A DNA stretch of 64,000 nt, taken from contig CAMDFO010000017.1 of the NCBI GenBank assembly GCA_945897515.1, positions 1 to 64,000 of the forward strand, read 5' to 3'. This DNA is from Rhodoplanes serenus. Its GTDB lineage: Bacteria > Pseudomonadota > Alphaproteobacteria > Rhizobiales > Xanthobacteraceae. How positions within the stretch are numbered: position 1 is the first letter of the stretch; every line of letters starts with the position of its first letter. Made by a program: the position numbers and the translations under genes. The notes under the pieces are model-generated. The model was not told the DNA's origin. It searched no databases and worked only from the letters and a program-made list of their open reading frames with translations. This document shows, piece after piece, positions 61,134-64,000 of this stretch.

Positions 61134-62282
61134 ATGACTGCCGCAAGCGTTGAAGCCAATGCCGTGGCCAAGGCGCCGCGGCTCGACTGGCCGTTTCTCG
61201 CCGCCGCAGTGCTGGCCGTGGCGCTGCTGGTGGCGCTGGTCGCGCTCGATGGCCAGCCGGCCGCCGCGGCGCTGATCCTGGGCGGCTTTGCGCTCGGGGT
61301 GACCTTCCTCAAGGCCGAATTCAGCTTCACCGCGTCGTGGCGGCGCTTCATCGTGCGCGGCGACGCCGGCGGATTGATCGGCGCGCTGATCCTGATTGCC
61401 GTGGCCTCGCTGGTGGTCGTGCCGGTGGCGGCGCTGGTGCCCGGTTTCGGCGGCGCGATCGCGCCGATCGGACCGTCGCTCTTGATCGGCGCCTTCGTGT
61501 TCGGCATCGGCATGCAGCTCGCGAACGCCTGCGGCTCGGGCACGCTCTACACCGTCGGCGGCGGCTCCGGACGCATGTTGATCGCTCTGGCGTTCTTCAT
61601 CGGTGGCAGCGTCATCGGCACACTGCATCTGCCGGCTGCGATGGCGCTGGGTGGCGTCGATCCGATTCTCGCGGCGAATTATCTCGGCGCCTGGGGCGGG
61701 CTTGCGGCGACGCTGGCGAGTCTCGCGCTCGCCGCCGCCGTCATCGTGGGCGTTGCACGCAAACGCGGCGCGGGTTTTATGCCGTCGCGAACGATCCTGA
61801 TCGGCGCGCTGATCATCGGCGTGCTTTGCATAGGCGTGTTCCTCGCAGGCGGCCATCCCTGGAGCGTGACCTTCGGCTTTACGCTGTGGGGCGGCAAGAT
61901 CGCGAGCGCGCTCGGTTTCGATCTGTCGATGTCGGAGTTCTGGCAATGGCCGGGTCCGAAGCGCGCGCTTGCGGAATCGATCCTGAGCGACACGTCGAGC
62001 CTGACCGACATCGGCATGATCCTGGGCGCGATGGCCGCGGCCGCGGCCAGCAAACCGTTCGCGCGCGCCTCATGGCCGCCCGCGAAGTCGCTGCTCGCCG
62101 CCGCCGTCGGCGGCCTGCTGATGGGGTGGGGCGCGCGGCTCGGCTTCGGCTGCAACATCGGCGCCTTCGTCGGCGGTGTGGCGTCCGGCTCGCTGCACGG
62201 CTGGATCTGGTTCGGCGCGGCGCTGTGCGGCTGCACCATCGGCATCAAGCTGCGGCCGCTGTTCGGCCTGTCGCGGGATTAG
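61134..62282 (+). CDS. YeeE/YedE-family sulfur transport membrane protein
   Basis: A 382-residue polytopic protein with two DUF395-type repeats, each holding a Cys-containing loop: QLANACGSGTLYTVGGGSGR and FGCNIGAFVGGVASG. In TsuA-type members these cysteines relay thiosulfate across the inner membrane. Around nine to eleven membrane spans are visible. It lies directly after the exported rhodanese, so the pair may capture, rework and import sulfur compounds. The substrate could also be selenium or another sulfane compound. Confidence 0.88.
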   Translation: MTAASVEANAVAKAPRLDWPFLAAAVLAVALLVALVALDGQPAAAALILGGFALGVTFLKAEFSFTASWRRFIVRGDAGGLIGALILIAVASLVVVPVAALVPGFGGAIAPIGPSLLIGAFVFGIGMQLANACGSGTLYTVGGGSGRMLIALAFFIGGSVIGTLHLPAAMALGGVDPILAANYLGAWGGLAATLASLALAAAVIVGVARKRGAGFMPSRTILIGALIIGVLCIGVFLAGGHPWSVTFGFTLWGGKIASALGFDLSMSEFWQWPGPKRALAESILSDTSSLTDIGMILGAMAAAAASKPFARASWPPAKSLLAAAVGGLLMGWGARLGFGCNIGAFVGGVASGSLHGWIWFGAALCGCTIGIKLRPLFGLSRD

Positions 62283-62487: not shown

Positions 62488-62534
62488 GCCGCGCTCGCGT
62501 GTCGAATTGCTCACCCTCGTGCCACACAATCGGT

Positions 62535-62646
62535 GTCATGCCCGGGCTTGACCCGGGCATCCATGAGATGACGCAGCACGCACGCTCGTACGATTTCCTT
62601 CGCCGCACGCGTTCATGGATCGCCGGGTCAAGCCCGGCGACGACAG
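62535..62646. repeat. Dispersed palindromic repeat pair (type A), second copy
   Basis: GTCATGCCCGGGCTTGACCC... and ...GGATCGCCGGGTCAAGCCCGG, essentially the same two-module element as at 4824-4936, with a different spacer. The ends (about 30 bp each) match almost base for base. Confidence 0.85.
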
Positions 62647-62803
62647 TGGAGTGTGACGCGCGCGCGGTATCGCGCGTGAAGTTCTCAAAAAAGAATACTT
62701 ATCCCCGCCCTTCAAACCGCACTTATGTTCACCGCAGCCTGGCTCGGAGGGCGTCGTCGATCGCGGCGTCGGAGCAAGGTGCGGTGTCCGACAACGACAT
62801 CGC

Positions 62804-63000
62804 GGTGGAGCGCCGGGAGGCGCAGCGGCCAGCGTCATTGGCTGCGCGCATCCCGATAACGGTAAGTCCCCTGGTGACGGGGGATACTGCTGTGGATGCG
62901 CGGCTGACCGCCAATGGTCGGCCAGGCGGGCCCCCGCTGGGGCAAGCGTCCGCCGATGGGGGCCGTAGCGCAGCCCCCTGGCGCCTCCCGGCGCTCTATT
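62804..63000 (+). ncRNA. Candidate structured RNA, multibranched, unknown family
   Basis: A perfect 16-bp closing helix joins GAGCGCCGGGAGGCGC (62808-62823) to GCGCCTCCCGGCGCTC (62981-62996), extendable with G-U pairs. Inside lie several stems: GCGCATCC/GGATGCGC (62846-62853/62894-62901) enclosing TCCCC/GGGGA (62867-62871/62880-62884); GGCTGACC/GGTCGGCC (62902-62909/62916-62923); GGCGG/CCGCC (62925-62929/62950-62954) enclosing CCCC/GGGG; and GGGGGC/GCCCCC (62958-62963/62973-62978). Several wobble pairs are allowed only in the plus-strand transcript. The 215-residue ORF across it is not credible. It could be a stable RNA or a structured mobile repeat. No known family recognised. Confidence 0.55.
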
Positions 63001-63130
63001 CCCTCGTTCGGAGGGAGAAGAAAAAGGGATGCAGGCTCACCCCGGGCCTGAAATCAAACAACAGGGGCGGCGGAGCGTTGGCTAAGCCGGCTGTCTGACA
63101 ACTGAATCGGAAAGTGTGCGAGCGAACGGG

Positions 63131-64000
63131 CTACAGCCGCTGCGCCAAAAACGCCTCGACCTCGGCGCGGAGTGGCGCGCCCATGCTGCCGCCGAATTTC
63201 GTGCATTTCAGCGCAGCCGCGGCCGAGCCGAAGCGCATCGCCGCCACCTCGTCGAGCCCCTCCGCGAGGCCGAGCGCGATGCCGGCGTGGAATACGTCGC
63301 CGGCCGCCAGCGTATCGACGGCTTCCACCTTGAATACCGGCAGCGCCCGCAGCGTTCCGCCGGCGAAGTACAGCACGTCGCCCGGTCCGTTGCTGACCGC
63401 AAGGAATGCGTTGGTCCGAGACCGGAAGCGTTCGAGGCCCTTGGCGAGGTCGGTCAGTCCCGTGGTTTCGCGCAGGCATTCGGACGAGAAGACCACGTGG
63501 CTGACGATGCTAAACAGCGGGTCGTCCTCGACCGTCGGCCGGTCGGCGTCGAGCACGATGGGAATGCCGCGCCGGTGCGCCGCCTCGCAGATCGGCCGCA
63601 CGAAATCCGGGAAGCGATTGTCGGCAAGCAGCAGGTTCTTATCTCCCACCAGCGTATCCGGATTGGCGTGGCGCGCGGCTTCGATCCGGCGGTCGCGGTA
63701 GGTCGCGATCATCCGCTCGCCGGCGCCGTCCACCATGATGCCGGACACCGGCGCGGTGGCTTCGTCCACGCGCACGACGCCGGAGGTCGAGATGCCCTCC
63801 TGCGCCATCTGCGCCATGAGTTGATTGCTGACTTGGTCGTGGCCGCCGCCGAGCGGCCCTGCGAAATGCGCGTTGCCGCCAAGCCGCGCCACCGCGATGG
63901 CAGCGTTGACCGCGCAGCCGCCGGGAATGATCGCGAACTCGTTGGTCATGGTCTTGCCGCCCGGCGGCGGAAATTGCGCCACCTTGAACACGATGTCCTG
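63131..64000 (-). CDS. PfkB-family carbohydrate kinase (5' end cut by window edge)
   Basis: At least 289 codons of a ribokinase-like sugar kinase. The frame stays open to the window edge (QDIVFKVAQFPPPGGKTM...), so the true start is outside. Features: the substrate-binding segment PGGCAVNAAIAVARLGG, and the ATP/catalytic signature DTLAAGDVFHAGIALGLAEG with the catalytic Asp. PfkB kinases phosphorylate ribose, fructose, ketodeoxygluconate, adenosine and others; the substrate here cannot be named from the visible part. Nothing in the neighbourhood points to a pathway. Confidence 0.9.
   Translation of the reverse strand, partial: QDIVFKVAQFPPPGGKTMTNEFAIIPGGCAVNAAIAVARLGGNAHFAGPLGGGHDQVSNQLMAQMAQEGISTSGVVRVDEATAPVSGIMVDGAGERMIATYRDRRIEAARHANPDTLVGDKNLLLADNRFPDFVRPICEAAHRRGIPIVLDADRPTVEDDPLFSIVSHVVFSSECLRETTGLTDLAKGLERFRSRTNAFLAVSNGPGDVLYFAGGTLRALPVFKVEAVDTLAAGDVFHAGIALGLAEGLDEVAAMRFGSAAAALKCTKFGGSMGAPLRAEVEAFLAQRL

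Follow-up and report, generated by a model that had tools for sequence, protein, structure and literature searches.

The window analysed here comprises 64,000 nt of a draft genome of Rhodoplanes serenus (contig CAMDFO010000017.1). Inspection of its open reading frames places a YeeE/YedE-like gene, which ends at 62282, and a convergent PfkB-like gene, which ends at 63131, on either side of a conserved unit of about 420 bp on the + strand. The limits of this unit (about 62690 to 63113) were set by blastn of the host genome with a wider query. A first-pass annotation had described an RNA-like structure of about 200 nt at 62804-63000 in this gap; the fold was recovered, but its coordinates were too narrow, as it forms one domain (P3) of a unit twice as long. 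The location is noncoding, as had been proposed, because the unit lies between the two genes and because indels between its copies are not multiples of three; for the latter reason a 215-aa ORF over the unit was rejected as a reading frame. Just upstream, at 62514-62655, lies another dispersed palindrome of intergenic regions (TGTCATGCCCGGGCTTGACCCGGGCATCC...GGATCGCCGGGTCAAGCCCGGCGACGAC), unrelated to the unit; in the complete genome G004 palindromes of this type often stand directly 3' of the boxA tail described below.

Homology among the copies starts at 62690-62698 and takes in a promoter-like segment (62694-62733) with a -10-like hexamer TATGTT at 62724-62729. This hexamer is TATNNT in most copies of the host genome (TATGTT, TATCTT, TATAAT, TATATT), and the window copy has no good -35. 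P1 (62735-62781) is a CCTGGCTC/GGAGCAAGG stem around a hairpin at 62749-62770 and is conserved in all subfamilies aligned. It is followed by the small P2 hairpin (62781-62803, GCGGTGTC-CGACAAC-GACATCGC), the multibranched domain P3 (62804-63000) and the P4 hairpin CCCTCGTTCGGAGGG (63001-63015), which is present in all copies with varying sequence. The 3' domain contains P5 (63032-63050) within an H-type pseudoknot (63032-63067), where the loop CCCC at 63040-63043 would pair with GGGG at 63064-63067. A conserved GGAGCGTTGGCTA at 63072-63084, evident from the alignments, lies 3' of the pseudoknot, and the unit closes with a boxA-like tail GCCGGCTGTCTGACAACTGAATCGGA at 63086-63111, one base off the motif TGTTTGANANNTGAAT. 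All of these features are on the + strand, and the aligned copies of the host genome share the order TATNNT, P1, small P2 hairpin, P3, P4, GGAAAAAGGGA, P5 and GGAGCGTTGGCTA.

On the + strand 62804-63000 folds with -139.9 kcal/mol against a mean of -102.0 for shuffled sequences (z = -7.6, with none of 200 shuffles as good); the - strand of the same stretch folds more weakly (-122.8, z = -6.6), again with no shuffle as stable. P3 is closed by a helix of 62804-62823 with 62981-63000, in which 62808-62823 (GAGCGCCGGGAGGCGC) and 62981-62996 (GCGCCTCCCGGCGCTC) are exact reverse complements, so that the perfect 16-bp helix of the first-pass annotation is confirmed. The inner stems reported there were likewise found, as five arms (62825-62845, 62846-62901, 62902-62923, 62925-62954 and 62958-62978) that differ in number, length and sequence from copy to copy. 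In one copy of the host genome (L058, contig C24) a nested pair of palindromes of about 28 nt lies within the 3' strand of P3.

By following the tail through the family, long forms of about 450-560 nt were found in the Afipia group and in other genera, in which the small P2 hairpin is replaced by a conserved core of about 195 nt; P2 of the window copy corresponds to the outer helix GCGGCG/CGCCGC of this core. Model R1, which represents the 3' domain, matches the window at 62980-63077 with 90.2 bits. Model R2, which represents the core, gives no match in the window copy, and this copy is therefore classed as a short form; the host genome has five R2 matches at other places. The long forms carry near-consensus sigma70 promoters in the same place as the -10-like segment of the window copy: TTGACA-16-TATAAT/TATAGT (L382, L381), TTGACA-16-TATACT (L380) and TTGACA-17-TATATT (L306). 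Two copies in G004 have a different yet well-spaced promoter. A sigma70-like promoter at a constant distance upstream of P1, as expected of an independent RNA gene, thus recurs in several genera and is weaker in the window copy. Comparison of the copies establishes a predicted promoter at a fixed place and the boxA tail. In genome G014 the tail pattern occurs 16 times, and those upstream sequences that were read (L348-L352) lack the known core; these loci possibly represent a further subfamily.

Evidence for a conserved structure comes from changes between relatives. The P5 loop can pair with a complementary segment that lies 10-20 nt further downstream, and the two partners of this pseudoknot change together (CGCCGGT/ACCGGCG, TCCGGG/CCCGGA, TCCGC/GCGGA, GCCCC/GGGGC, GGCCCC/GGGGCC and GTCCC/GGGAC); each segment scores better with its own partner (mean 4.60) than with swapped ones (maximum 4.11 in 200 permutations). 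An alignment of P5 and the pseudoknot from 44 sequences (A1) has two-sided changes in nine of ten pairs and a covariation of 0.369, compared with 0.178 for shuffled and at most 0.166 for slid alignments. For the core (alignment A2) RNAalifold predicts 50 pairs, 22 of them changed on both sides, with 95.9% of cells paired versus 82.4% after shuffling and a covariation of 0.381 against 0.137 (shuffled) and at most 0.071 (slid); about 60 positions of the core are invariant across genera. In both alignments the compensatory changes exceed the phylogeny controls, and they demonstrate a conserved fold, predicted at the RNA level, on the + strand. Homologues thus exist, and their helices are preserved rather than broken. 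Compensatory changes in the 16-bp helix had been proposed as a check; P3 itself varies little within its own subfamily, but in the Tardiphaga (T. robiniae) subfamily the helix is retained although its sequence differs.

The host genome, a 4.5-Mb draft, contains at least 20 copies, with 20 R1 matches. Its contigs break at copies of the element (contig ends C4, C58, C67, C72, C15 and C71), and the contig of the window begins some 160 nt past lepA, a place at which some relatives have a copy. Within the host's family R1 detects the 3' domain in 72 of 200 genomes, from 21 of 42 genera and with 1 to at least 21 copies each (counts being capped); among 241 genomes drawn across the class, the host genome is the sole match. 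R2 matches 76 of 150 genomes of the family, spread over 29 of 42 genera. Among 249 genomes drawn across the order, it detects the core in the host genome, in G035, which is also of that family, and in four genomes from other families, of which one has 8 copies. The E-values of both models are rough. A 20-nt P3 motif was also searched in named genomes, and the matches listed belong almost all to organisms of the Xanthobacteraceae/Nitrobacteraceae type, among them Afipia, Tardiphaga, Pseudolabrys, Rhodoplanes, Pseudorhodoplanes and Rhodopseudomonas. Similar sequence had been expected in Bradyrhizobium-type genomes; it does occur elsewhere, but in the host's family (Afipia, Tardiphaga, Rhodoplanes, Pseudolabrys and others), and genus g24, which might be Bradyrhizobium proper, was negative in every sampled genome listed. 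The searches delivered no match in plasmids or phages and no P3 motif in viral contigs, two core-motif matches in the phage and plasmid search being attributed to chance; an origin from a phage or plasmid is not supported.

The suspicion of a mobile structured repeat was well founded insofar as the copies are dispersed and polymorphic between species. A complete Tardiphaga-group genome carries at least 30 copies with nearly the same ends, and near-identical copies within one genome have the whole stretch from just upstream of the -35 to the tail in common, with different flanks. At one Tardiphaga-group site four congeners have the downstream flank and lack the element. The two flanks at this site, that of the T. 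robiniae copy L296, lie more than 1 Mb apart in the close relative G093, where the downstream flank retains part of the element, suggesting rearrangement by recombination between copies. These comparisons document dispersal in many copies whose ends are discrete, and a polymorphism for the presence of the element. Spread would take place at the DNA level, since the homology already begins 5' of the promoter, which an RNA cannot carry. Neither a transposase, a target duplication, a transposition mechanism nor an autonomous version was found for the element; at the ends of recent copies, compared without an exact empty site, no target-site duplication is visible.

Apart from vertically inherited neighbours, no recurring linked protein gene was found. 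In Afipia clevelandensis, as in one other genome, R1 detects a single copy, in both cases next to lepA, and an element beside a PAS/GGDEF/EAL gene is common to Afipia and Tardiphaga. A syntenic master gene was considered and dropped, as the lepA and/or PAS/GGDEF/EAL copy is kept in Afipia and Tardiphaga, and the lepA copy in one further genus, but not in general. An autonomous, ORF-bearing version in G002, with halves 2-3 kb apart, was also rejected: the halves belong to copies into which other genes have been inserted. In both (L279, L280) the 5' strand of P3 is split by an insert of 2-3 kb beside a shared sequence CGCGC(T/G)TATGCATCTTA; the insert of L279 comprises a dioxygenase-like gene, a TctC-like gene and an apparent remnant of an IS5-type transposase, that of L280 a TctC-like gene.

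Such dispersal would also be expected of a selfish structured repeat devoid of RNA function, whose folds act as DNA only, in cruciforms or recombination, with promoter and boxA as hitchhikers. The polymorphic copies lie largely in convergent intergenic regions, elements occur at a rearrangement junction in one case, and short forms persist without the core. The covariation of a loop with a downstream segment is, however, meaningful in RNA only, G-U is among the standard pair types, the promoter is consensus-like and conserved in position, and the invariant core positions extend across genera; we therefore regard this explanation as unlikely.

Many copies end in GGCTGTTTGACAATTGAATC. The motif TGTTTGANANNTGAAT occurs 6 times in the host genome and 31 times in G004, with none for the reversed-pattern control. 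Among 30 sites inspected, 28 are 3' ends of elements, and the other two lie in rrn leaders, 237-240 nt 5' of 16S; since the motif was found only in these two places, the tail is equated with the rrn boxA, the match to the genome's own rrn boxA extending over a 16-nt motif. In rRNA transcription boxA recruits NusB-S10, and the tail of the element probably does likewise. It is missing from many copies, including those of the Afipia/Tardiphaga lepA/PAS-EAL type and most named short forms. No enrichment of intrinsic terminators was found after boxA. Its position at the 3' end means that boxA cannot shield the preceding RNA from Rho.

Promoter, complex RNA and boxA together have the layout of a processive antitermination leader, and a cis-acting role in the manner of put RNA or EAR, as leader or antiterminator of adjacent genes, was considered. 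Yet 39 of 44 copies with boxA are followed by a convergent gene, so that there is usually no downstream operon to serve; this orientation already disfavours a leader, which we hold to be very improbable. In G004 convergent and other copies stand at 19:2 where boxA is present and at 5:4 where it is missing (p = 0.049); G004 and the host genome together give p = 0.004, and the named set alone shows the same trend more weakly (9:1 versus 42:32, p = 0.08), all with an ad hoc codon-based gene caller and with copies that are related and thus non-independent. The bias fits a tail that causes read-through by the polymerase and can be tolerated only in the absence of a sense gene downstream, but is suggestive only.

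The tail could alternatively serve as a decoy, the RNA being a stable folded scaffold that shows a single-stranded boxA in trans, sequesters NusB-S10 and tunes rRNA antitermination by gene dosage. The match to rrn boxA, the strong rrn-like promoters of the long forms and the high copy number all speak for such a role; we nevertheless give it a low probability, as the many copies without a tail, including the lepA/PAS-EAL-type copies of Afipia and Tardiphaga, are hard to reconcile with it and the conserved core is left unexplained.

The explanation towards which we lean, by a narrow preference, is that of dispersed, independently transcribed noncoding RNA genes, each with a sigma70-type promoter, a structured RNA and a 3' boxA tail, which spread at the DNA level and meet NusB-S10 at boxA. 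The unit would copy itself as DNA with its promoter moving along; the promoter would drive a + strand transcript that accumulates as a stable RNA, with a body of P1, P2 (in long forms the core), multibranched P3, P4, and P5 with the pseudoknot. The emerging boxA would be bound by NusB-S10 (NusE), and the leaving polymerase would resist termination; because of this proposed resistance, boxA copies would be tolerated mainly before convergent genes. The conserved core argues for a protein partner of, or catalysis in, the RNA body. As part of the same explanation the window copy would be a shortened derivative that has no core but retains P1, P3, the pseudoknot and the tail. Points against the explanation are the poor -35 and the single boxA mismatch of the window copy, the many copies without boxA, the 3' position of boxA and the lack of any transposition mechanism among the findings. 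A bolder version, which we advance with considerable reserve, sees a mobile element made of an rRNA-like transcription cassette, namely a strong sigma70 promoter, an ornate, possibly catalytic or protein-binding RNA of about 500 nt and boxA, with no encoded protein and with core-less derivatives that parasitise the long forms.

Covariance models of Rfam 15 gave no match to the whole window at the gathering score, and nothing credible at E-values up to 1-5 for short, medium and long forms; membership of RNase P, tmRNA, 6S, SRP, introns, HEARO, OLE, GOLLD and ROOL, all within the scope of Rfam 15, was not indicated. The earlier statement that no known RNA family fits is borne out, and its 'undescribed conserved RNA' is substantiated by the + strand promoter and the compensatory changes in P5, pseudoknot and core. 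No description of the family was found in open-access full text, and by Rfam 15 and this literature it is undescribed. A group I or group II intron, suggested by motif resemblance (GGAAGCACGGTCC, GTGCG), was dropped for lack of a covariance-model match.

Like MITEs and other non-autonomous insertion sequences, the unit is multi-copy and polymorphic, contains inverted repeats and has no ORF. It differs in that no target duplication was seen, no parental transposase was found and its 16-bp inverted repeat is internal; a MITE with this repeat as its ends was rejected, as both arms of the perfect repeat are located about 115 nt inward from the ends of the unit. With OLE, GOLLD and ROOL (e.g. PMC12286853) it shares a length of hundreds of nt, an elaborate conserved fold and the lack of a protein product, but these RNAs are unrelated in sequence, whereas the unit occurs in tens of dispersed chromosomal copies with sigma70 promoter and boxA tail and with no phage link found. 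Leaders of rRNA operons have a strong sigma70 promoter and a near-identical boxA, but there boxA precedes 16S, whereas it ends the unit here, and the upstream folds are unrelated.

Many members of a common family of soil bacteria, culturable strains of Afipia and Tardiphaga included, appear to carry tens of copies of a 350-560-nt RNA that is as elaborately conserved as OLE or ROOL, yet has no entry in Rfam 15. Partner proteins and function of a large ornate RNA linked to an rRNA antitermination signal would be directly testable, and the family would account for many breaks in the assemblies of these genomes and for many spurious ORF calls.

Br-REP1 and Br-REP2 of Bradyrhizobium (PMC5082802) are likewise dispersed in intergenic regions, often at gene 3' ends, and structured as RNA. 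REP and Br-REP sequences are short palindromes, whereas the element is a multi-domain unit (420 bp in the window, 420-750 bp overall) with promoter, pseudoknot and boxA. The same paper mentions, without showing it, a 'larger repetitive element' in Afipia and relatives, which could overlap the present family. Br-REP2-like sequence flanks some of the T. robiniae copies.
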